A stretch of DNA of 64,000 bases from Caldilineaceae bacterium (GTDB lineage: Bacteria; Chloroflexota; Anaerolineae; Caldilineales; Caldilineaceae): assembly GCA_022821585.1 (NCBI GenBank), contig JAJEDI010000034.1, positions 1 through 64,000 of the forward strand. The letters are read 5' to 3'. This document shows, piece after piece, positions 1 through 12,018 of this stretch. Under the pieces are notes generated by a model. It was not told the DNA's origin, made no database searches, and worked only from the letters and a program-made list of their open reading frames with translations. The number at the start of each line of letters is the position of its first letter. The stretch's first letter is position 1. The position numbers and the translations under genes were made by a program.

Positions 1-133
1 ACCATGAGCGACCACACCAAAGTCTCAACTATCGCACGCCGGCGGAAGAGCACTTCGTGCTCTGTTCAGAGCCGGCCGCGTTCGTCTAAATGCACCTTAT
101 TTTTCCCATTTCGTGGTCTAACGATTGGGGCCA
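1..133 (+). mobile_element. Right end of an IS3-family element (copy 1, partial)
   Basis: The first 133 bases match, with about 16 mismatches by eye, the inner end of the complete IS at 3233-4476 read on the other strand. They hold the end of the OrfB transposase and a terminal repeat ending in TTGGGGCCA at about 125-133. The rest of the element lies outside the window. It faces the second copy in inverted orientation, so the two right ends bracket the PHP-ATPase gene. The divergence between copies argues against a very recent composite transposition. Confidence 0.85.
3..89 (+). CDS. IS3-family transposase OrfB, C-terminal fragment
   Basis: The reading frame open at the window edge encodes the last 28 residues of an IS3 OrfB, including the conserved HERPHQSLNYRTP block. 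It matches the C-terminus of the complete OrfB at 3302-4138. The stop seen in copy 2 (CTC TGA) is CTC TGT here, so this product runs eight codons further to a TAA at 87-89. Everything upstream, including the DDE catalytic residues, is outside the window, so activity cannot be judged. Confidence 0.85.
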   Translation, partial: HERPHQSLNYRTPAEEHFVLCSEPAAFV

Positions 134-483
134 ACCATAACCCTGATGGATCGCAATTCCCCCTAGACATTCCAACAGGTTTTGGGGCCCACTTCATTAT
201 AACAGAACAATAGCATCTAATTCTGTTGCGGAAGCATATCGATGCTTTGCCCCAGTTTAGATGCAATCGCCCTGGGGCTTGTATTCTCAAGAAATGGAGA
301 ATTATTGCCTTGCTACTCTAATGTTAACCATCATTGCTTGCCTCGAATCTTAACTCTTAATCCTGACCTGCTCCGCCACCTTCCGTGCTTTGGAATCCCT
401 CAGAGCAAGTGCTAAGCTAAGACCTGTTTTTGTCCAGATGCCAATGTGCTTCTCTGAAACAGCAAGAATGTTAAGGAATTCGC
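134..483. other. AT-rich gap between IS end and PHP-ATPase gene
   Basis: This 350-base stretch between the IS inverted repeat and the next start codon shows no convincing gene. It is clearly AT-richer than most of the window and ends with an AAGGA ribosome-binding site just before the ATG at 484. It should hold the promoter of that gene, but no close -35/-10 pair stands out. Confidence 0.6.
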
Positions 484-3144
484 ATGAGTTACAGAAACTT
501 TCCAGGTGCGAAATGGTGGAAATTCGACTTTCATGCCCACACACCTGCCTCAGACGACTTTGAAGAGCACTATCCCCCAAACAGCAATGACGAAATTACG
601 CCCGAATCCTGGTTAATCAGATTCATGCATGAAGGAATCGACTGTGTTGCGATCACAGATCACAATAGCGGCGATTGGATCGGTGAATTACAAGAAACAC
701 TTGAATGGATGAGAGAAAGCCAACATCAAGACTACAGACCACTCGTTCTGTTTCCCGGTGTGGAAATCACCGCATTTGGCGGCGTCCATATTTTGGCTAT
801 CTTTGGACCAGAAAGATCCCAACAGGATATTATTGCGTTAATGGGTGCCGTGCAGTTTGAAGGCACGCCAGGAAAGAGCGATGGCGTGACCATAAAGTCC
901 ATCCCCGATGTTGTAGATATCATTTCACGACGAGGTGGGGTCGCTATCCCCGCACACGCTGACCTCCCAAACGGGCTGTTTCAGGAGTTAGGTGGCAATG
1001 ATCTTAGATCAATATTAGGTAACGCCAACCTTCATGCCATGGAGGTCATAAACGATTGTTACGTACCACCACAGCTGTACACAGAACAGAAACTACAGTG
1101 GTCGAGAGTTAAGGGGTCCGATACACACTTTAAGACTGACGACAGATTTGGATCGTTTTCCTGGGTCAAAATGGATGAACCGAGCATGGAGGGTCTGAGA
1201 CTCGCACTGACAGACAATGATGCCTCTGTAAGTTGTCAGACAGACATAGACCCAAACAGGCATGCAGAATGGACTATCGAAAAGTTGACAGTTACAAATG
1301 CAAAATATGTGGGCCGACCCCGCTCCGTCGAATGCGTATTCAGCCCATACTTGAATGCAATTATTGGTGGAAGAGGAACAGGAAAGTCGACGCTGCTGGA
1401 ACTCATACGACTCACGCTGCAAAGAAAGGATGACATCCCTCAACGACTTATTGAAGAAAACAAGAAGTACTACGATGCGAGAAGTAACGATGGGCTGCTA
1501 CTCCCTTCTAGTCAATTGTCGCTAATCTGTCGCAAAGGAGTTGTTAGGTATCGCTTGACATGGGAAGCCGAATCCAATTCATCCATTATCGAGGAACTCA
1601 AGGAAGGAATCTGGACCCGTGCCCCTGGAGAGATTAGGTCCCTCTTTCCTACCCACATCTATAGTCAGAAGCAGATATTCGAACTAGCGGGAGAACCCTC
1701 AGCCCTCCTCGATATCATCGACGAAGCCCCCGATGTCAAGAAGGCAGAGTTCGAAGAAGAAAAGAGAGGTTTAGAGAATCGCTATAGGCAAATTGGACAC
1801 AGAATTCAAGAACTAGACCAGATACTCGGTGAGGAAAACCGACTGCAAGGCGAACTCAACGACTTTCTTAGACAGATTAGGCAGATCGAAGACTCAGGGC
1901 ACAGAGAAGCTCTGCAAAACTTCCGAACAAGACAGCAACAGAATAGCGACATCAGTAATTTGGAGAAGGAATGGGCAACCATAACAGATCAGATAGGTGA
2001 GATCAGCAACAAAATCACACCTCCAACCATCAACAGTAATATCTACCAAAACCACCCCGACATGCTGTCAGCACTCATATCCAATAATCAAAAGTGGGAA
2101 GAACTACACCAAAAACTCAAAGCCCTTTCGCACGAGGCAAGCACTATTTTGTCCCAATGGGAATACCAAAAGACAGCCGCTGCTTGGATGCGAGATTTGA
2201 CGCAAGATATGGAAAGACACAAAGAGGTGATCGAAACGCTCACCGAGCAAAGCATTGACCCAGATCTGTACCCCGAACTCTTGGAGAAACACAGAAACCT
2301 AGAGACCTCACTGCGGGACATGGATGCCCACAGATCTACTAGGCTGGGCTTGATAGCAGAAAGAGGGGCGATTCTTAGAAGATTGACGGAAAACAGGGAA
2401 AAGCTGACAGAAAGAAGACAATCCTTCCTCGCCAATGTGCTTCAGGGAAACACCTCAGTCAAAATCAAGGTGGAGCCCTTCGGAGAAGAATGGGATTCCA
2501 TAGAAAAGTCACTCCGCAACATCCTTGGCCTCGATTCAGGATACAATAGAGACTTTGAGTCCCTGAGACACACTTACACAAACGCAAACGATGGGAATAC
2601 CGATCTCCTGAAAGACCGAATCCTGAAAATTCGGGCCGGCGTTGAGCAGCCCCAAGATGGCAGACTTACGGAACGCCTAAGGCGGCTATCCCAAGACTCT
2701 ATTAGTAGCCTAGAGCTATGGTTCCCAACAGACGATCTAGATATCACCTTTGGCCATAACAATCAACCCATCGAACAAGGCTCACCAGGACAAAAGACGG
2801 CCGCCCTGCTCGCATTTATCCTGTCATACGGTGATGACCCTCTGCTCCTTGACCAGCCAGAAGACGACCTAGACAACGAACTCATTTATAAACTCGTAGT
2901 CCAGCAACTCAAACAGATTAAGAATAAAAGGCAAGTAATAGTGATCACTCACAACGCAAATATTGTGGTCAACGCCGACGCAGAAATGGTCCTGCCCCTC
3001 AAGATAGCAAAAGGGCAAACCGTAGTGCACGAACCTGCCAGCCTTCAAAGAAAGCAGGTCAGAGACTCCATATGTGATGTGTTGGAAGGAGGGCGCCAGG
3101 CGTTCAGGCTCCGATATAAGCGTATCAACCTAGAACAACCCTAA
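484..3144 (+). CDS. PHP-domain phosphoesterase fused to SMC/RecN-like ATPase (TrlF-family-like)
   Basis: An 886-residue two-part protein. The N-terminus (about 1-220) is a PHP metal-dependent phosphoesterase domain: FDFHAHT with H17/H19, ITDH at 57-60, E94 in PGVEIT, H158 in PAHAD and D213/H215 in GSDTHF. The rest is an ABC-type ATPase of the SMC/RecN/Rad50 kind: Walker A GRGTGKST at about 296-303, a long charged probably coiled-coil middle (about 395-650), signature SPGQK near 767, Walker B LLLDQPEDD near 787-795 and an H-loop VITHN near 823. All catalytic motifs look intact. The architecture resembles the family NCBI calls TrlF; the name is from memory. Such PHP-SMC proteins sit in mobile islands and are suspected nucleic-acid-processing or defence proteins, but the substrate is unknown. 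Composition is AT-richer than the neighbours and IS copies flank it, both signs of transfer. Start ATG has an AAGGA site 5 nt upstream. Confidence 0.85.
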   Translation: MSYRNFPGAKWWKFDFHAHTPASDDFEEHYPPNSNDEITPESWLIRFMHEGIDCVAITDHNSGDWIGELQETLEWMRESQHQDYRPLVLFPGVEITAFGGVHILAIFGPERSQQDIIALMGAVQFEGTPGKSDGVTIKSIPDVVDIISRRGGVAIPAHADLPNGLFQELGGNDLRSILGNANLHAMEVINDCYVPPQLYTEQKLQWSRVKGSDTHFKTDDRFGSFSWVKMDEPSMEGLRLALTDNDASVSCQTDIDPNRHAEWTIEKLTVTNAKYVGRPRSVECVFSPYLNAIIGGRGTGKSTLLELIRLTLQRKDDIPQRLIEENKKYYDARSNDGLLLPSSQLSLICRKGVVRYRLTWEAESNSSIIEELKEGIWTRAPGEIRSLFPTHIYSQKQIFELAGEPSALLDIIDEAPDVKKAEFEEEKRGLENRYRQIGHRIQELDQILGEENRLQGELNDFLRQIRQIEDSGHREALQNFRTRQQQNSDISNLEKEWATITDQIGEISNKITPPTINSNIYQNHPDMLSALISNNQKWEELHQKLKALSHEASTILSQWEYQKTAAAWMRDLTQDMERHKEVIETLTEQSIDPDLYPELLEKHRNLETSLRDMDAHRSTRLGLIAERGAILRRLTENREKLTERRQSFLANVLQGNTSVKIKVEPFGEEWDSIEKSLRNILGLDSGYNRDFESLRHTYTNANDGNTDLLKDRILKIRAGVEQPQDGRLTERLRRLSQDSISSLELWFPTDDLDITFGHNNQPIEQGSPGQKTAALLAFILSYGDDPLLLDQPEDDLDNELIYKLVVQQLKQIKNKRQVIVITHNANIVVNADAEMVLPLKIAKGQTVVHEPASLQRKQVRDSICDVLEGGRQAFRLRYKRINLEQP

Positions 3145-3301
3145 CCACAAGAGAAAACATCCCGCCCCGTACCATGGGGCAGGACGCACACACTCGGTAT
3201 GACTGTTGCGATAGTGCTCGCAACAGCTATGGTGGGTCCCAATGTTTGGACCACGAAACGGGTAGAATAAGGTGCATCCAGATGGATGCGGCCGGCTCTG
3301 A

Positions 3302-4138
3302 TCAGAGCACGAAGTGCTCTTCTGCCGGCGTGCGATAGTTGAGACTTTGATGTGGTCGTTCATGGTTGTAGAAGTCGAAATAGGCGGTCAAACTGGTTTG
3401 CAGCTGACGCACCGTGTCATACTGGTTGAGATAGATGTTCTCGTATTTGACGCTGCGCCATAGACGTTCGCAGAAGACGTTGTCGAGGGCGCGGCCGCGG
3501 CCATCCATGCTGACTTGAATGTTGGCCGAGAGCAGGCAGGTGGTGAAAGCATCGGCCGTGAACTGTGCGCCCTGGTCGGTGTTGAAGATCTTGGGCCGAC
3601 CTGTGCTGAGCGCCTGACGCAGGGCATCGAGACAGAAGATGCCGTCCAGAGTGTTGGAGAGCTGCCAAGCGAGCACATAACGACTGTGCCAGTCGATAAC
3701 AGCGACCAGGTACATGAAGCCACGCAGGAGCGGCACATAGGTAATGTCTGCGCTCCAGACCTGGTTGACATGCGTAATCGGCAGGTTGCGCAACAGATAG
3801 GGATAGCGCTTATGTCCCTTGCCAGGCGAACTGCTGCTTCTCCTGGGGTAGATAGCTTGAATGCCCATCAGACGCATCAGCCGTCTGACCCGTTTGCCAT
3901 TGACAGCATAACCCAGCCGGCGCAGATAGACGGTCATCTTGCGCCAGCCATAGAAGGGCGTGCGCAGGAATTGCTCGTCAATCAGCCGCATCAGTTGCAG
4001 GTTCAATGCTGACTCGGGAGCCGCCTGGTCGTAGAAAGAGGAGCGGTTGAGCCCGAGCAGTTCACCCTGCCGCCGGACACTTAGAGTCGGGTTTGCTACA
4101 TCGACCATACGCCGTCTCTCACGGACCGAAGCGGGCAA
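3302..4138 (-). CDS. IS3-family transposase OrfB (DDE integrase)
   Basis: A 278-residue catalytic subunit with an rve-type DDE core: first Asp in VWSADITYVPL, second Asp in FNTDQGAQF, Glu in DNVFCERLWRS, and the C-terminal block RPHQSLNYRTP. The N-terminal helix-turn-helix_21-like segment (RRQGELLGLNRSSFY) precedes it. It overlaps the end of OrfA by 20 nt. The listed start is a TTG; in practice OrfB is probably made as an OrfA-OrfB fusion. The OrfB frame is +1 (equivalently -2) relative to OrfA, not the usual IS3 -1, and stays open back to the A9 run at 4140-4148, where loss of one A would join the frames. Confidence 0.9.
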   Translation of the reverse strand: MPASVRERRRMVDVANPTLSVRRQGELLGLNRSSFYDQAAPESALNLQLMRLIDEQFLRTPFYGWRKMTVYLRRLGYAVNGKRVRRLMRLMGIQAIYPRRSSSSPGKGHKRYPYLLRNLPITHVNQVWSADITYVPLLRGFMYLVAVIDWHSRYVLAWQLSNTLDGIFCLDALRQALSTGRPKIFNTDQGAQFTADAFTTCLLSANIQVSMDGRGRALDNVFCERLWRSVKYENIYLNQYDTVRQLQTSLTAYFDFYNHERPHQSLNYRTPAEEHFVL

Positions 4139-4403
4139 CTTTTTTTTTCAGCCACTCAAGTTCCATCTTGAGCCGCCCGATCTGTTCATAGAGTTCGGCT
4201 TCCTGCGCCTCCTGCTCCCGTTGCTTGCGCTCGCCATTGCTGGCGAAGACGCTGGGCCCGTCTTCCAGCAGTTGCCGTTTCCAGGCTCGTATCAGGTTGG
4301 CATGAATCTCGTGTTCACTCGATAACTGGCTAATCGTCTTGCTGCCTTCCAGCGCAACCCGAAACTTGTAGGCTGCCGTGTGTCGACGTCGTTTCCTGAC
4401 CAT
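4119..4403 (-). CDS. IS3-family transposase OrfA (HTH/leucine zipper)
   Basis: A 94-residue DNA-binding subunit. Residues 1-50 form the helix-turn-helix (RRRHTAAYKFRVALEGSKTI, then SEHEIHANLIRAWKRQL). Residues about 58-88 form a heptad-rich zipper ending in LKKKVARFGP. OrfA binds the element ends and, fused to OrfB, gives the transposase. The three Lys codons come from a run of nine A at 4140-4148 on the coding strand, a likely slippage site. Confidence 0.85.
   Translation of the reverse strand: MVRKRRRHTAAYKFRVALEGSKTISQLSSEHEIHANLIRAWKRQLLEDGPSVFASNGERKQREQEAQEAELYEQIGRLKMELEWLKKKVARFGP
4140..4148 (-). promoter_or_regulatory. A9 slippery run at the OrfA/OrfB junction
   Basis: Nine consecutive A on the coding strand (CTG A9 GTT) inside the OrfA/OrfB overlap. 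OrfB lies in the +1 frame, so transcripts lacking one A (A8), or a ribosomal +1/-2 shift, would yield an OrfAB fusion. Homopolymer slippage is a known way to express IS3-type transposases; here it is inferred from position and frame only. Confidence 0.55.
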
Positions 4404-4521
4404 TGAACTGGCCCTCCACGTGCTTGGTGATCTGCTCCATTATACACCTTAGCTCGTGGTCCAGTTTTTGGGGCCAAGCTCGGCATTCTGTCACGACAGG
4501 AATCTAGAGATAGAAGCAGAA

Positions 4522-4863
4522 ATGGACTACTGGTTAAACTTTAGGGGCGCCGACCTAAGGGGGGTGGATCTTTCGTTAATGAATCTCTCTAGAGCTCCTC
4601 TCAGATGGAGAATATCCACTACCGTTTATCAGCAGTTTGCAACCGGACGGTACACAGATATGCGTGGCGCGAAAATGGACGACGTTTCTCTGTTCCTCAC
4701 AAAACTATCAGGAGTTGACCTATCTCGTGCAACCGGCCTGACCCAAGATAAAGTGAATGACGCAAGGTTTGATTCGGACAGTCCCCCCGAATTGAATGGC
4801 ACTACTGATGCCAAGACTGGAGTATCAATAGTCTGGAATGGTAACCCTTTGCAAGATGAGTAG
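4522..4863 (+). CDS. Pentapeptide-repeat protein, 5' end disturbed by the IS
   Basis: About 113 residues from the ATG at 4522. The frame is open upstream into the IS terminal repeat. Pentapeptide-like A(D/N)LXX repeats are seen in GADLRGVDLS, MNLSRAPL, MRGAKMDD and LSGVDLSRATG. The tail has the GLTQDKVNDA pattern common at the end of such repeats. The right IS end stops 45 bases before this ATG and no strong ribosome-binding site is visible, so the original N-terminus was probably removed by the insertion. Likely a remnant of a longer right-handed beta-helix protein; function unknown. Confidence 0.6.
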   Translation: MDYWLNFRGADLRGVDLSLMNLSRAPLRWRISTTVYQQFATGRYTDMRGAKMDDVSLFLTKLSGVDLSRATGLTQDKVNDARFDSDSPPELNGTTDAKTGVSIVWNGNPLQDE

Positions 4864-5718: not shown

Positions 5719-6273
5719 ACGAAAGTCACTGAGGCCAGTTGGGATGTGCCGCGGTGGGCCTTGGGGGGGATCTTTTTGATCTGCGCTGTTCTTGGTCTAT
5801 TTCTAGGAGTTTGCTCATGTCTCTTACTGTACAACATCTTTGAGAGATTGCACATTTGTTCTTGTTTCGTGGTTGCCAGAAGTTGGTGATTTCTGTCTGA
5901 CCTGGGATTTGCGGGCCCGATATGGTGTCAAGCCACGAGGGCACCCACAAGGGGTGCCCCTACAGGGGATATGGCGGTGTGTGTTGGGCCTGGCCGGGCG
6001 TTGCGTTGCCTGCGCCGGGTCACGCCTCGGAACGAGCCACGAGGCGGGGTGGGGGAAAGTTCGGTCGCAGCGGGTCGTCAAGGTCATATTGCCACACACT
6101 GGCTGCGGCGGGGGGTTTAGGAGAGGGGGCGTTGCGGGGGCGGAGCCCCCCCACAAGGGAGGGCCGAATAGGCCCGACCGCCCAGAACTGCAGTAGTCAG
6201 TAGTCAGTAGTTAGCAGTTAGTGGAACACCGGTGGTCAGTTGTTTGAAGGTGGGGTGGGTGGTCGTTGATTTG
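5719..6273. repeat. Repeat-filled gap: families A and D plus heptamers
   Basis: No credible gene in 555 bases. It holds a copy of the family A palindrome (GGGCACCCACAAGGGGTGCC) at 5937-5963 and the family D block (GC-rich hairpin GCGGGGGCGGAGCCCCCC, then a GGGCCGAATAGGCCC stem) at 6120-6189. Short CAGTAGT/CAGTGGT heptamers follow to about 6240. The order D block, AACTGCAG, heptamers recurs elsewhere. Confidence 0.75.
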
Positions 6274-7038
6274 CTATTGTTGGAGGTCGTCGAAGAGGAT
6301 GGCGTGGACGACTTTAGGGCCGTGGACGCCGGTGGTGAGGTTGCCTTCGAGGTCGGCGGATTTGCTGGCGCCGGTGATGATGGAGAGGTTGCGGCTGTGG
6401 CGGAGGTAGGCGTCGAGTTTGCCGGCGTGCCGCATTTGGGCGAGCCAGTCTTCGCCGGTGGCGTAGAGCCGGCTGAAGGGGATGACGACGAGGTGGCGGA
6501 AGGGCGTCAGGCTGGCGGCGCGGGCGTTGGGGCCGCGGCCGCCGACGACGAAGGAGCCGGTGCTGGCGAAGGCGGCTTCGACGGTGGTGATGCCGGCACG
6601 GACATAGCGGATGCGTTCGCGCTGCTCGGGGTCGTGAAGGTCGGTCGGTTGGATGAGTTTGAAGCCGACTTCTTCGAGAATGAGGGGGAGGCCTTCGATT
6701 TGCAACTGGTCGAGCGGCCAGCAGAGGACGTCCCAGTCCTCCGGGCGTTCGGCGTCGGCGGTCTTGCGGGCGGCCTGCTCCTCTTCGAGCCAGAGCTGCA
6801 GGCGGGAGACGACGGAGAGGCGGGCTTCGGTGACGGTTTCTAGGAGCTCGCAGCTGCCTTTGACGGCGTGCAACTCCTGGGCGAAGCGATGGGCCTGGGC
6901 CCAGATATCGCCGTCGACGTGGGTTACGGTCATGCGTTCGGTGTGGGTGAGGGGTTCGCTGTGCGCGGGCGGGAAGGGGAGGTGGGGCTGTTGGAGGGCC
7001 TCGCGCAGGCGGGACAGGATCGTATCGCGAACGGTCAT
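6274..7038 (-). CDS. lutC: Lactate utilization protein LutC (LUD domain)
   Basis: A 254-residue single-domain LUD protein. The C-terminal signature GASKSADLEGNLTTGVHGP (about 219-237) and the ASTGSFVV block near 160 are typical of LutC/YkgG. In Bacillus LutABC oxidises L-lactate to pyruvate in the cytoplasm; LutC is the non-Fe-S partner. It is the last gene of a minus-strand operon, 49 nt after lutB, in the canonical order lutA-lutB-lutC. Length is normal and no key motif is missing. Confidence 0.9.
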   Translation of the reverse strand: MTVRDTILSRLREALQQPHLPFPPAHSEPLTHTERMTVTHVDGDIWAQAHRFAQELHAVKGSCELLETVTEARLSVVSRLQLWLEEEQAARKTADAERPEDWDVLCWPLDQLQIEGLPLILEEVGFKLIQPTDLHDPEQRERIRYVRAGITTVEAAFASTGSFVVGGRGPNARAASLTPFRHLVVIPFSRLYATGEDWLAQMRHAGKLDAYLRHSRNLSIITGASKSADLEGNLTTGVHGPKVVHAILFDDLQQ

Positions 7039-7087: not shown

Positions 7088-8515
7088 TCACTTTTGACCC
7101 CGCATTTTGCTGCGTTGGCGCCACCATTCGCGGAAGCTCTTGGGCGCGAATGGGGCGAAGTCGCGGTAGGCGGTCCAGCCGTTCAAGGGGGGCGGCATGA
7201 ACTTGATGTTGCCGCCACTCATACCGGCGTAGAGGTTGGAGCCGATGCTGGCCATTTTGCCGAGATTTTCGTACATGCGGCGGCTGTTCATGAGGCTGGC
7301 GTAGCTCTTGATGCCCCAGGCTTCGGTTTTAGGTGAGGCGCCTTCCTGTACGAGATCGGAGCGCAGGTCGAGGAGAAGGCGGGGCAGGTCGATCTTGACC
7401 GGGCAGGCCTCGCGACAGGCGCCGCAGAGGGAGGTGGCGTGGGGCAGCTCTTTGAACTGGGCGATTTCGGGGGCGAGGGCGGGTGAAATGACGGCGCCGA
7501 TAGGGCCGTTGTAGGTGCCGCCATAGGCGTGGCCGCCGATCTCCTGGTAGACGGGGCAGGCGTTGAGGCAGGCGCCGCAGCGGATGCAAAGGAGGGCCTC
7601 GCCGTAGCCGCGTGCCAACATGCGGGAGCGGCCGTTGTCGAGGAGGACGACGTGGACCTGCTCGGGGCCGTCGACGTCGCCCTGCTGGCGGGGGCCGCTG
7701 GTCATGGAGCAGTAGACTGTGAGCTGCTGGCCGGTGGCGCTGCGGCAGAGGGCCTGGAGCTGGAGGAAGGCGTCTTCGACGGTGGGGACGAGTTTTTCGA
7801 TGCCCATGACGGCGACGTAGACGCGGGGCATGCTGGAGACCATGCGGCCGTTGCCTTCGTTGGTGACGATGCAGATGGTACCGGTCTCGGCGATGGCGAA
7901 GTTGCAGCCGCTGACGCCCATGCCGGCGGCGAAGAACTCCTCGCGCAGACGGGCGCGGGCGAGCGAGGTCATTTTTGTGGGTTCGCGCGTGGGCGGCATG
8001 TCGAGTTTTTCCTGGAAGACTTCGGCGATCTCTTCCAGGCGCTTGTGGATGACGGGGGCGACGATATGGCTGGGGGGCTCGTCGGCGAGCTGGATGATGT
8101 ATTCGCCAAGGTCGGTCTCGACGACGCGCAGGCCGGCCTGTTCGAGAGCGTGGTTGAGGTGAATCTCCTCGGTTGCCATGGACTTGGCCTTGACGACCAG
8201 GTTGGCGCTGTTCTGGAGGGCGATATCCTTGACGATGGCCTGTGCGTCTGCGATGCCCCCGGCCCAGTGGACGGTGCAGCCGTTGCGGGTCAGGTTGGTC
8301 TCGAGCTGTTCGAGGTAGTCGGGCCAGTTGCTGAGGACGTGCTCCTTCATTTTACGCACTTGCGTGCGCAGCAGCTGTCCTTCGACCGCGCCCATGGAGG
8401 CGAGACGGGCATTGGTCATGCGGTCGGTGGCCTTGCTGACGGCGACGCGGAGATTGGGGTCGCTCAGGGCCTGATTGACGCGGTCTTTGTAGGGGGCGTG
8501 GATGTCTACTTGCAT
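7088..8515 (-). CDS. lutB: Lactate utilization iron-sulfur protein LutB
   Basis: A 475-residue protein with an N-terminal LUD domain (about 60-300) and C-terminal ferredoxin-type clusters: CIRCGACLNACPVY near 309 and CGACREACPVK near 363, enough Cys for two 4Fe-4S centres. The long insertion and C-terminal tail ending in WWRQRSKMRGQK are usual for LutB. It should pass lactate electrons through the LutA/LutC complex. It sits between lutA (49 nt upstream) and lutC (49 nt downstream). Confidence 0.92.
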   Translation of the reverse strand: MQVDIHAPYKDRVNQALSDPNLRVAVSKATDRMTNARLASMGAVEGQLLRTQVRKMKEHVLSNWPDYLEQLETNLTRNGCTVHWAGGIADAQAIVKDIALQNSANLVVKAKSMATEEIHLNHALEQAGLRVVETDLGEYIIQLADEPPSHIVAPVIHKRLEEIAEVFQEKLDMPPTREPTKMTSLARARLREEFFAAGMGVSGCNFAIAETGTICIVTNEGNGRMVSSMPRVYVAVMGIEKLVPTVEDAFLQLQALCRSATGQQLTVYCSMTSGPRQQGDVDGPEQVHVVLLDNGRSRMLARGYGEALLCIRCGACLNACPVYQEIGGHAYGGTYNGPIGAVISPALAPEIAQFKELPHATSLCGACREACPVKIDLPRLLLDLRSDLVQEGASPKTEAWGIKSYASLMNSRRMYENLGKMASIGSNLYAGMSGGNIKFMPPPLNGWTAYRDFAPFAPKSFREWWRQRSKMRGQK

Positions 8516-8564
8516 GGTCGCGGCTTCCTGGTGGCCGTTTGGGACCTGATTGGGTCGGGCACGG

Positions 8565-9410
8565 TCAGTCGCCCCAGCGGCGGGGGTGGTCGGCTTGTGC
8601 GGGCGCGGGCTGCGAAGGCGGGCGCAGCGTGCTGCCGAGATGGTTGTTGAGGATTTCGGCGATATGGTGGGCGTGACAGGCGATGCCTTCGCGGCTGAGA
8701 ATGCCGTTGATATGGGTCATGCAGCTGACGTCGCAGAGGACGATGGCGTCGGCACCGGACTGCTCGGCATTGCTGGCTTTGGCGCGGCCCATGGCGGCGC
8801 TGATGCCGCTGTTCTTGATGGCGAAGAGCCCGCCGAATCCGCAGCAGTCGTCGGCGTGGGGCAGGTCTACGACTTCGAGGCCTTCGACGCCGTCGAGCAG
8901 TGTGCGGGGTTGCCGGTCGACGCCGAGCTCGCGATAGAGGTGGCAGCAGGGGTGATAGGCGGCTTTGCCCTGCAGCTGTGCGCCGGTGTCGACGATGCCG
9001 AGGACGTCGACGAGGAATTCGGTGAGCTCGAAGGTGACCGATGCCAGACGCTCGGCCTGGTGGGCCAGGTCGGTCTCCCGTGATTCGTTGAAGATGACTT
9101 CGAAGAAATGGCTTGTCATGGTGGCGCAGCTGCCAGAGGGGGCGACGACGGCATCGACTTCGCCGCTTTCGACGAGCGGGGCGAAGACGGCGAGGAAGCG
9201 GCGGGCCAATTTGCGGGCCTCGTTGAGGTAGCCGGCGTTGAAGGCGGGCTGACCGCAGCAGGTCTGCTCTTCGGGGAAGACGACCTCTATGTCGTTCTTT
9301 TCGAGGAGCTCGCAGGCGGCGATGCCGACACCGGGGTAGAGCATGTCCACCATGCAGGTGACGAAGAGGGCGACGCGTTTTGGTCTTTGTTGGAATGAGG
9401 CTTTGTGCAT
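8565..9410 (-). CDS. lutA: Lactate utilization Fe-S oxidoreductase LutA (CCG domains)
   Basis: A 281-residue protein with two CCG domains: TCCGQPAFNAGY (CCG at 51-53) and PCCHLYRELG (154-156) with DDCCGFGG (189-194). These Cys pairs bind a heterodisulfide-reductase-like Fe-S centre. The family includes LutA and the GlcF subunit of glycolate oxidase; adjacency to lutB and lutC decides for LutA. First gene of the operon. The C-terminal 20 residues are Pro/Arg-rich and unlike the family core. No strong ribosome-binding site precedes the ATG. A heptamer repeat lies in its upstream region. Confidence 0.92.
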   Translation of the reverse strand: MHKASFQQRPKRVALFVTCMVDMLYPGVGIAACELLEKNDIEVVFPEEQTCCGQPAFNAGYLNEARKLARRFLAVFAPLVESGEVDAVVAPSGSCATMTSHFFEVIFNESRETDLAHQAERLASVTFELTEFLVDVLGIVDTGAQLQGKAAYHPCCHLYRELGVDRQPRTLLDGVEGLEVVDLPHADDCCGFGGLFAIKNSGISAAMGRAKASNAEQSGADAIVLCDVSCMTHINGILSREGIACHAHHIAEILNNHLGSTLRPPSQPAPAQADHPRRWGD

Positions 9411-9419
9411 GGGGAAAAC

Positions 9420-9458
9420 CAGTAGTTAGTGGTCAGTGGTCAGTGGTCAGTGGTCAGA
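9420..9458. repeat. Heptamer array (CAGTGGT) upstream of lutA
   Basis: Four to five units of GTCAGTG sit in the 72-base gap between the M24 peptidase and lutA. They lie where a lut promoter or 5' leader would be; no other element is visible there. Confidence 0.7.
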
Positions 9459-9482
9459 AACTGCGGTGATTGGTGGCGGGTA

Positions 9483-10802
9483 TCAGGTTAAGGCGACTAG
9501 TTCGGTTTGGTAGGGTAGGGTGGTTACTTCGAGGCGGCCTTTGTGGACGATGCAGTTTACTTCGGTGCGGATGCCGAGTCCTTTGGGCCGGCCGCTGTTG
9601 TCGAAGTCGAGGTGGGGGAGGTAGATACCGGGTTCGATGGTGAACATGACGCCGGGGATGAGCGTGCGGCGGTCCTGGGTTTCAACGTTGTCGATGTTGA
9701 CACCGTTCCAGTGGGTGTTGGGTCCCAGGCTGTGGCCGGTGCGGTGGAGGATGCCCGCGGCGTAACCGGCGTCCTTGATGACGGCGCTGACGGCGTCGTC
9801 GACTTCGTAGCCGTGGACTGTTTTGCCGGCTTCGAAGGCCGAGTTTATGACTTTGACCGCAGTGTCGCGTGCCTGGGCGACGACGGAAAAGACGCGGCTG
9901 GCGGTTGGGGGCGGTTCAGCGCCGCAGTAGGCGGTCCAGGTGATGTCGGCGTAGCAGTCGTCGGGACTGTTTTTTTCTTTGGCCCAGAGGTCGATCAAGA
10001 GCACATCGCCGGCTTGAATCGAGCTGTGTTGCCGGGCGCTGGGTGCGTAGTGGGGGAGGGCGGCGTTGCCGTTGACGGCGACGATGGGATCGTGGTCCCA
10101 ATCGAGGTCGGCGGCACGGAACCGGTCGACGATGAGTTGCTGGACGTTGTACTCGGTGATCTCTTGCTGCTGGGCGAGGGCCTGGGCCACGAAGGCGAAG
10201 GCCGCGTCTTTGGCGGCGAGCACGTGTGCGGCGGCGCGGCGGTGGCTTTCCATCTGCCGGGTCGTGAGCACGGCTTGTACGATTTGAACGAGGTCAGCGC
10301 TGCTGACGATGGTTGCGTCGGTTGCGGTGCGCACCATTTCGAGGGTGCCGGCGTCGACGTTACTGACGTAAGGGATGGCGCCGCGGGGGCTGTATTCCAT
10401 GGCGATGCGACTGGAAGGATCCTGCGGCAGGATGGTGCGCAGTTTACTCTCCAGCTCCTGCCAGCCGACGTAGAGGTGGAGCGGGCCGGCCATTTCGGGG
10501 GGTACTGAGCTGAAGGTGGACTGTTCGATTGCGTGGACGAGCCATTGGGGCTCGCCCTCGGCAGGGATCCAGAGCAACCAGCGGCGCGTTCCGGTGGATT
10601 CGAGGCGGGCGACGGAGGCGGCGATGGGGTTCTGGCCGCGAAAGTCGTAGAGGAGCCAGCCGGCCAGGTTTTGCTGGCGGAGGTGGTTGCGGATTTTTTG
10701 CAGCTTCACGGGTGCCGTCCCTGGTTGGCGTCGCTGTGTGCGTTGAGTTCTGACGTGCGCAATCTGGTCAGTAAGAGTTGAAGCAATTGGATATGCCGAC
10801 AT
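9483..10802 (-). CDS. M24-family metallopeptidase (Xaa-Pro aminopeptidase-like)
   Basis: A 439-residue protein with an N-terminal creatinase-like domain (GWLLYDFRGQNPIA near 48-61) and a pita-bread M24 domain. The five metal ligands are visible: Asp in LLIDLWA, Asp in CYADITW, His in HRTGHSLG, Glu in FTIEPGIY and Glu in IRTEVNC. It probably removes residues next to proline from peptides or cleaves creatine-like amidino substrates. The first ATG (10802) has no clear ribosome-binding site; homologues tend to start nearer KLQKIRNHL, so a downstream GTG near residue 32 is possible. Same strand as lutABC, 72 nt ahead; co-transcription is possible but unproven. Confidence 0.88.
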   Translation of the reverse strand: MSAYPIASTLTDQIAHVRTQRTQRRQPGTAPVKLQKIRNHLRQQNLAGWLLYDFRGQNPIAASVARLESTGTRRWLLWIPAEGEPQWLVHAIEQSTFSSVPPEMAGPLHLYVGWQELESKLRTILPQDPSSRIAMEYSPRGAIPYVSNVDAGTLEMVRTATDATIVSSADLVQIVQAVLTTRQMESHRRAAAHVLAAKDAAFAFVAQALAQQQEITEYNVQQLIVDRFRAADLDWDHDPIVAVNGNAALPHYAPSARQHSSIQAGDVLLIDLWAKEKNSPDDCYADITWTAYCGAEPPPTASRVFSVVAQARDTAVKVINSAFEAGKTVHGYEVDDAVSAVIKDAGYAAGILHRTGHSLGPNTHWNGVNIDNVETQDRRTLIPGVMFTIEPGIYLPHLDFDNSGRPKGLGIRTEVNCIVHKGRLEVTTLPYQTELVALT

Positions 10803-10897
10803 TATTCCACGAAGTGGCGATTAGGTCTAGTTTCTTGCGGTGGTCAGAGACAGCGGGGGAATTGCTGGCGAGACGGAAAACTGACCGAAACTGGGTG

Positions 10898-10926
10898 TTG
10901 ACAGATCACTAGAACATATGTACAAT
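10898..10926 (+). promoter_or_regulatory. Near-consensus sigma-70 promoter of the ssb cluster
   Basis: TTGACA at 10898-10903, a 17-base spacer and TACAAT at 10921-10926, followed about 85 bases later by the first ssb start. The -35 is perfect and the -10 has five of six consensus bases with optimal spacing, which is unusual in this GC-rich window. Confidence 0.75.
10912..10923. promoter_or_regulatory. LexA/DinR-like operator overlapping the ssb promoter
   Basis: GAACATATGTAC matches the Gram-positive-type SOS box GAAC-N4-GTTC with one mismatch and overlaps the spacer and the start of the -10 hexamer. A repressor bound here would block polymerase. SOS control of ssb is known in other bacteria; this site is inferred from sequence alone. 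Confidence 0.5.
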
Positions 10927-11011
10927 GTGGGTATGTCAGATTAGGAGAGACTTGACGGGCCACAGACGCGATGAATCGATCCAATTGCAGATGAAATGAG
11001 GGGACTGTACA

Positions 11012-11437
11012 ATGTATCAGCAGATCACTTTGGTTGGAAATTTGGGCAATGACCCTGAGATGAGGCACGTGCCGAGCGGGGATCCTGTAACGAATTTCAG
11101 CGTTGCCACCTCGCGGTCTTGGACAGGCCAGGACGGGCAGCGGCAGCAGAAGACGGTCTGGTTTCGGGTGTCTGCGTGGGAACGCCTGGCCGAGACGTGC
11201 AACCAGTATCTCGCGAAAGGCCGGCGCGTGATGGTTGTCGGCGAGCTGGAAGAGCCTTACATTTGGACAGACGACGAAGGCAATGCTCGGGCCATCTTGA
11301 AGGTTCGGGCGCGGAACGTGCAGTTTCTCAGTTCGCGGGAGCAAGGTAACGTCATGTCCGAGGGGCAGGCTGCGTACGGGAATGGGCAGCATGCTCCCAG
11401 TCCGGAATTGAACGGCGGAGAGGGGATACCGTTTTAG
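11012..11437 (+). CDS. ssb: Single-stranded DNA-binding protein 1
   Basis: A 141-residue OB-fold SSB. The N-terminus MYQQITLVGNLGNDPEMR is the family start. The core holds TVWFRVSAWERLAETCNQYL and KGRRVMVVGELEE, and the C-terminal tip GGEGIPF is a weakened form of the acidic DDDIPF tip that recruits repair enzymes. It binds ssDNA during replication and repair. First of three tandem paralogues, directly downstream of the strong promoter and SOS-like box. Ribosome-binding site GAGGGG lies 8 nt before the ATG. Compared with copies 2 and 3 it has the least acidic tip and HVPSGDP instead of the GVAV segment. Confidence 0.95.
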   Translation: MYQQITLVGNLGNDPEMRHVPSGDPVTNFSVATSRSWTGQDGQRQQKTVWFRVSAWERLAETCNQYLAKGRRVMVVGELEEPYIWTDDEGNARAILKVRARNVQFLSSREQGNVMSEGQAAYGNGQHAPSPELNGGEGIPF

Positions 11438-11574
11438 GTTTCCATATTGTCGTGACGTTTCCCGGGAAGACGGGGATTCCGGCGCGGCCAGGGAAGGTTG
11501 CGTCTTGGGCCGATTGACGGGATTCGCACAATTTTGAGACATTCATCACAGATCGAGGGAAGGAAGAGCGTTTA

Positions 11575-12018
11575 ATGTATCAGCAGATCACTTTGATTGG
11601 GAATTTGGGCCGCGATCCTGAAATGAGGTACTCAGCAAGCGGCGTGGCTGTCACCAACTTAAGCGTCGCCACTAGTCGAAATTGGACAGGTCAGGACGGG
11701 CAGCGTCAAGAAAAGACTGTATGGTTCAGGGTGTCAGTATGGGATAGGCAGGCCGAGACATGCAACCAGTATCTGACGAAAGGACAGAGGGTTCTGGTTG
11801 TCGGCGAAATGGAAGAACCATACGTGTTCACCGACCAGGAAGGGAATTCGCGAGCTTCTCTGCAGGTGCGGGCACGAAACGTGCAGTTCCTCAACTCACG
11901 AGCCGAACGAGAAGCCATGGGCGTAGGCGGTGGCCAGTACGGCGGCCAATCCGGACAGGCGGGGGGCGGGTCGGGAGCGACACAGGAGTACGGTGGTGAG
12001 GAGGATATACCGTTCTAA
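11575..12018 (+). CDS. ssb: Single-stranded DNA-binding protein 2
   Basis: A 147-residue SSB, highly similar to its neighbours: MYQQITLIGNLGRDPEMRYS, TVWFRVSVWDRQAETCNQYL, KGQRVLVVGEMEEPYVFTDQ. A Gly/Gln-rich linker leads to the acidic tip GGEEDIPF. A GGAAG ribosome-binding site lies about 9 nt before the ATG. The 137-base gap to ssb1 has no terminator, so it is probably co-transcribed with it. The intact tip suggests full interaction with SSB partners. Confidence 0.95.
   Translation: MYQQITLIGNLGRDPEMRYSASGVAVTNLSVATSRNWTGQDGQRQEKTVWFRVSVWDRQAETCNQYLTKGQRVLVVGEMEEPYVFTDQEGNSRASLQVRARNVQFLNSRAEREAMGVGGGQYGGQSGQAGGGSGATQEYGGEEDIPF

Follow-up and report, generated by a model that had tools for sequence, protein, structure and literature searches.

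The question raised by this locus is whether the gene at positions 484-3144 of the stretch of DNA analysed here (64,000 nucleotides, referred to as the window; bases 1-64000 of contig C37 in an assembly of 5.49 Mb and 102 contigs) represents a new kind of bacterial immune system, and whether it has been carried to its present place by the insertion sequences found on both sides of it. Both had been proposed in a sequence-only reading of the window.

The gene and its family

The features at the start of the window are collected in Table 1. A single open reading frame spans the locus exactly and begins with ATG (55 open reading frames were listed for the window); the sequence AAGGA can be read shortly 5' of this start. 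The sequence-only reading was headed as a gene set, which has to be reduced to a single gene. Its description of one large gene joining intact PHP metal motifs to an intact SMC-type ATPase agrees with both the reading frame and the alignment, and the gene is indeed AT-richer than its neighbours, with a GC content of 0.475 versus 0.621 in window positions 6001-64000.

Table 1. Coordinates of the trlF/ppl-like gene, its domains and the adjoining elements in the window
Feature	Position	Strand	Details and evidence
IS right end piece	1..139	+	139 nt, cut by the start of contig C37; 88% complementary to the right copy
trlF/ppl-like gene	484..3144	+	886 aa, stop codon included; ORF, PADLOC Ppl, NCBIfam TrlF_fam_ATP, AF2 model
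PHP phosphoesterase domain	505..1233	+	about residues 8-250; metal-binding motifs intact
ATPase head, N-terminal lobe	1270..1728	+	Walker A (residues 293-303), Q-loop (Q395); Pfam, alignment, model
Coiled-coil helices	1741..2439	+	about residues 420-652; long helices in AF2 model, Foldseek matches to SMC/Rad50/MukB/JetC heads
ATPase head, C-terminal lobe	2731..3009	+	signature, Walker B, H-loop; invariant columns
Gap, trlF stop to IS	3145..3232	.	88 nt; Schlafen starts here in nearest partnered homologues, absent in window
Complete IS3-family element	3233..4477 (about)	-	orfA 4119-4403, orfB 3302-4138; right end facing trlF

The PHP part of the protein holds the motifs DFHAH (H17, H19), TDHN (H60), GVEI (E94), H102, H158 and D213-x-H215, and the ATPase part a Walker A motif GGRGTGKST (K301), the Q-loop Q395, the signature SPGQ, the Walker B motif LDQPEDD and the H-loop H823. 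The conservation of these residues was followed in an alignment of the window protein with 49 of the 62 homologue loci fetched (13 truncated, fragmentary or duplicate ones were excluded; the near-copies L037/L039 and L048/L049 were retained among the loci). The columns of H19, D59, H60, E94, H102, H158, D213 and H215 are invariant, as are those of K301, Q395, S767, G769, D790-E793 and H823 in the ATPase, and H17 is kept at 90% or more. Among domain models, a CehA/McbA-type match covers residues 10-249 under that model's cut-off; in the N-terminal lobe AAA_15 stays under its Pfam cut-off and AAA_23 reaches 27.3 with a cut-off of 27, and in the C-terminal lobe the matches to SMC_N and AAA_21 lie above theirs. 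An AlphaFold2 model (mean pLDDT 88.1, pTM 0.75) gave as top Foldseek matches in the PDB the heads of SMC, MukB, condensin, JetC (Wadjet), RecN and Rad50 (query-normalised TM-score 0.20-0.33 within the 50 matches listed). By sequence, the best 60 of 102 PDB matches are led by ABC-F, ABC transporter and Rad50 heads and include no Ppl-like chain with a solved structure.

The protein was called Ppl by PADLOC (E 7.9e-139, residues 8-881), and two curated NCBIfam models define this assignment more closely. The TrlF_fam_ATP model (NF045780), which covers Ppl too, is matched with 553.6 bits versus a cut-off of 350 over model positions 2-943 of 944. The Ppl_antiphage equivalog (NF042955) is matched with 582.7 bits versus a cut-off of 1000, and a plasmid protein annotated as Ppl, used as a positive control, scored 1330.4 bits. 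Since the first cut-off is passed and the second is missed, the protein belongs to the TrlF family and lies outside the Ppl equivalog. It has the architecture of Ppl: a PHP domain whose metal-binding motifs are complete stands at the N-terminus, fused to an ABC/SMC-type ATPase. Its identity to the E. coli plasmid Ppl is 28.9% over 849 columns; because the Ppl cut-off is so widely missed and the identity is only 29%, activity, substrate and trigger may differ from those of Ppl. Judged by its sequence, the gene is a divergent, intact member of the TrlF (Ppl-like) antiphage family, which has already been described. The proposal of an undescribed immune system does not hold, as Ppl has models in both PADLOC and NCBIfam and its mechanism has been summarised in print (PMC12904381); taken alone, the window gene adds one more divergent member to a described antiphage family.

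The Schlafen gene behind trlF

The comparison of neighbourhoods matters more than the gene itself, because a branch of the TrlF family keeps, in several phyla, a Schlafen gene right behind trlF. Among 16 genus relatives a close homologue was found in two: G004 (53% identity, full length) and G010 (L149 7918-13391; 54% identity, interrupted near residue 822 by about 2.7 kb). Four genes located directly 3' of trlF (in G004, on contig C89 of the window's own genome and at loci L024 and L036) encode SLFN_AlbA_2 and HATPase_c_4 domains, and they served as seeds of a Schlafen HMM with which all loci were searched. Fifty of the 62 loci were evaluable, that is, their trlF match reaches the 3' end and is followed by at least 1.3 kb. 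A Schlafen gene lies directly downstream on the same strand in 22 of them (two being HMM seeds) and is absent from this place in 28. Of the 12 loci remaining, two show a partial Schlafen match at the contig end and one a Schlafen gene 382 nt after a truncated trlF. The HMM gave no match in the 20 control stretches or in the window.

In a quick tree of 54 proteins, made without bootstrap and with the E. coli Ppl and the C89 protein on long branches, the window protein falls into a clade of 11 rows (SH-aLRT 100). All of the other ten rows, which come from Pseudomonadota, Spirochaetota, Nitrospirota, Poribacteria, a mussel symbiont and the window's own genus, have Schlafen directly after trlF. 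The Schlafen label, given to L017 on a partial match, changes four times on the tree versus a mean of 17.0 after shuffling, and none of 500 shuffles was as low. The interrupted G010 copy, close enough to the window protein for this clade, was excluded from the tree; no Schlafen gene was found in the stretch of it that was read, which counts against the pairing and means that it is not universal.

At eight of nine junctions in the clade (G004 excluded) the ATG of the Schlafen gene follows the trlF stop by 2 nt, and at L010 the Schlafen start overlaps the trlF stop; trlF and Schlafen are probably translationally coupled in this branch. Three loci (L011, L012 and L024) have the order methyltransferase, trlF, Schlafen and helicase/Res, in other words a type-III-like restriction operon, and G004 has the same four proteins in a different order. 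At the other six clade loci the methyltransferase and Res proteins found no match in the sequence covered, which is short in some. The operon methyltransferase is named MTase_III by PADLOC and the match of Res is weak, and the four Schlafen proteins that were scanned gave only partial matches, to Argonaute-system models. The G004 stretch (L148, 1-11048) can be read as a same-strand run of trlF, Schlafen, a type-III-like methyltransferase, a PDC-M47A/PD-T4-4_A-like ATPase and a Res-type helicase.

By its place in the tree the window copy lies inside the TrlF-Schlafen branch, and no Schlafen gene stands downstream of it; on these sequence grounds it is an orphan in a branch which mostly carries a second, Schlafen gene. 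There is perhaps an even chance that its origin lies in an immune branch of two proteins, as yet undescribed, where a Ppl-type DNA 3'-exonuclease and NTP sensor is coupled in one operon with a Schlafen-type RNase, sometimes between type-III-like modification and restriction genes. A DNA-degrading and an RNA-degrading arm could then both be fired by a single trigger (nucleotide depletion or DNA ends), and the window copy would have shed the second. No description of a Ppl/TrlF-Schlafen pairing was found in the literature searched, most preprints and subscription journals lying outside that search. If this is true, the window copy would be a natural test of whether the second arm is dispensable. 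Since Schlafen is kept behind trlF across phyla, it becomes testable whether a DNA exonuclease that senses nucleotides is backed by a Schlafen RNase as a second effector.

Should this branch depend on its Schlafen partner, the orphan may be inactive. A rival reading takes the gene for a decaying remnant that has lost its function, half of a TrlF-Schlafen operon whose partner was removed by an IS3-linked rearrangement. Such an origin is compatible with the partner in all ten other clade rows, with an insertion sequence only 88 nt past the trlF stop at which no target duplication was seen by eye, and with the interrupted G010 homologue, for which no Schlafen gene was found in the stretch that was read. 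Nevertheless, it is unlikely, because the reading frame runs uninterrupted through its 886 codons and no motif has been lost, the adjacent Schlafen gene is absent from 28 of the evaluable loci, and section 5 of a 2026 review (PMC12904381) presents the E. coli Ppl as a system of one gene.

Other Schlafen and trlF-like genes of the same genome were considered as well. A Schlafen gene at contig C43 was examined as a displaced partner; its product is 72-73% identical to the G004 Schlafen, and Schlafen proteins 69-77% identical to that of G004 occur in nine of the 16 genus relatives and in the own genome. As these equally close homologues occur in relatives lacking a close trlF, and as the trlF genes of the window and of G004 are not sisters in the tree, the C43 gene is probably unrelated. 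In five of the six stretches fetched around such genes (L202-L207) Schlafen adjoins a conserved protein of about 422 aa, perhaps marking a defence hotspot of the genus. On contig C89 (30000-49900, L151) a trlF-like gene at 7824-10529 of the stretch is followed directly by Schlafen at 10539-11783; in the alignment the trlF-like protein has an apparently degenerate PHP motif I, and the stretch contains several fragments of the IS found beside the window gene. This second TrlF is too distant (22-28% identity) to explain the window gene.

Insertion sequences, accessory setting and defence context

The right-hand insertion sequence is a complete element with rve, HTH_21 and HTH_Tnp_1 matches above the Pfam cut-offs in its two ORFs. 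Its boundaries were set by eye, and no target duplication of 3-4 bp was seen by eye in the flanks. The earlier statement that the gene is bracketed by facing right ends of one IS family stands in so far as right ends do face it from both sides and the right copy is complete, but the left copy is a 139-nt contig end. When the IS was used as a query, at least 44 matches were obtained in its own genome, itself and the left piece included; these are pieces, not copies, and the number is a lower bound because the scoring did not extend to every candidate. Contig ends account for at least 20 of the 44, each measuring 130-142 nt, which would fit an assembler stopping at a repeat. Since the left IS stands at a contig start and contigs starting in this IS are common, the bracket says little for the claim that the module was moved by its flanking IS, an element that is frequent in this genome. 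A composite transposon, in which the two copies move trlF as a unit, is suggested by the facing right ends and is nevertheless very improbable, given a left copy that is a contig end, an identity of 88% (not full) between the two ends over 139 nt, the abundance of the IS in the genome and at contig ends, and the lack of a second gene copy at such identity in the genome. On the far side of the right element, the listed start of a pentapeptide-repeat ORF (window 4456-4863) falls inside the IS end, so the true 5' end of this ORF is uncertain.

The accessory character of the region is indicated by the comparison with relatives. Full-length orthologues of the gene at 7088-8515 are present in 14 of the 16 genus relatives, and the 14 stretches fetched from relatives align to the window as far as 6126-6287 (three of them hold next to no sequence past the alignment end and one holds 1.8 kb). 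Below this border the only matches over 60 nt are the IS-end piece and short repeats at 6101-6243. With synteny ending there, window positions 1 to about 6100 look accessory. The short repeat at 6101-6243 has further copies in four of the relatives' stretches (L161, L163, L164 and L166).

In all, some match was found in 77 of 100 genomes (the own one included), mostly short and to the PHP part of other proteins. Of 72,556 plasmid records 896 match; in 502 the match extends over 80% of the protein or more, and 677 of the 896 are predicted conjugative; many of the listed records have one common identity and look like near-copies. Phage records rarely match (7 of 50,697, two over at least 80%). 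To judge by its composition and patchiness, the trlF gene appears to have been acquired horizontally.

The neighbours of homologues were scanned at 20 of the 62 loci, chosen on longer contigs, at a threshold of E 1e-20 or better. Their 115 neighbouring ORFs matched 101 PADLOC families, versus 24 for 119 ORFs in 20 control stretches elsewhere on the same contigs; families and not genes are counted here, the models overlap and one methyltransferase may match a dozen of them. Half of the control families (12 of 24) are DpdF helicase models, and a strong PsyrT/PsyrA pair was found there too. Among nine hand-picked neighbours five match restriction enzymes or methyltransferases (types I, III and IIG; one of the five weakly, 3.8e-21) and four match nothing. 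In Pfam, McrBC, MmeI and DNA methylase stand beside three homologue loci, one scanned neighbour is an ordinary YdbH-like protein, and a homologue on a Citrobacter plasmid has genes for a type II restriction endonuclease and a cytosine methyltransferase in its vicinity. It had been suggested to check whether homologues lie in defence islands more than expected, and the excess over matched controls agrees with such placement; a uniform position in core chromosome operons was not seen, the homologues being patchy and often on plasmids. The view of a one-gene nuclease-ATPase defence module is thus upheld by TrlF-family membership, patchy occurrence, many plasmid homologues and defence-type neighbours. 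A housekeeping role in DNA repair or as an SMC-type gene, with no link to defence, which the likeness of the ATPase head to Rad50/SMC heads might suggest, is extremely improbable in view of the absence of a close homologue from 14 of 16 genus relatives, the many plasmid homologues and the restriction-type genes adjoining homologues in several loci.

Putative mechanism and relation to known systems

Ppl was reportedly discovered by Gao et al. in 2020. According to the 2026 review (PMC12904381), in a statement for which no source is cited there, the E. coli protein is a single-gene 3'-5' exonuclease on ssDNA that is held off by NTPs and released on nucleotide depletion by phage. A primary paper on this mechanism was not found in the literature search; a 2026 study correlated ppl with phage resistance. 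By analogy with E. coli Ppl, the PHP domain of the window protein would be a metal-dependent 3'-5' exonuclease acting on single-stranded DNA, and NTPs bound at the PHP and ATPase sites would keep the enzyme off. A phage that drains the nucleotide pool and exposes 3'-OH ends would release it, and DNA would be degraded. In the two-gene relatives the Schlafen protein, which combines an RNase-type fold with a histidine-kinase-like ATPase, would provide the second arm, which probably cuts RNA. The window copy would act as the DNA arm alone, like the single-gene Ppl, or be the leftover of a two-gene operon. The reading we favour, and regard as likely, is that of an intact TrlF-family antiphage gene with a putative Ppl mechanism, standing as a DNA arm alone or as such a leftover; by this analogy the gene is probably functional by the Ppl mechanism.

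Several described systems can be set beside the window gene. An SMC-type ATPase head with a coiled coil is shared with LmuB of Lamassu and JetC of Wadjet: LmuB matches the window protein in PADLOC (4.9e-16), and JetC and LmuACB chains are among the Foldseek matches. In contrast to the window gene, these systems consist of several proteins, the nuclease being a separate one, and are not known to contain a PHP domain. The TrlF family AAA-like ATPases (NF045780) include the window protein above the curated cut-off and over its full length; the family name carries no tested function in the literature examined, and no literature combining TrlF, phage and defense was found, with most preprints and subscription journals outside the search.

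One paper (PMC12839542) describes, near BREX loci, Schlafen RNases that carry a fused minimal histidine kinase and wHTH, and it cites a preprint on antiphage defence by Schlafens of bacteria. The trlF partner resembles these RNases in joining a Schlafen domain to a C-terminal histidine-kinase-like ATPase. The difference is that those accompany BREX-type loci, whereas the ones reported here follow trlF and are missing from the window. A further comparison is that with Ppl itself (NF042955), with which the window protein shares the order of domains over its full length (8-881) and the PHP and ATPase motifs, and from which it is set apart by low identity, a score far below that of the equivalog, and membership of a branch that usually comes with a Schlafen partner.
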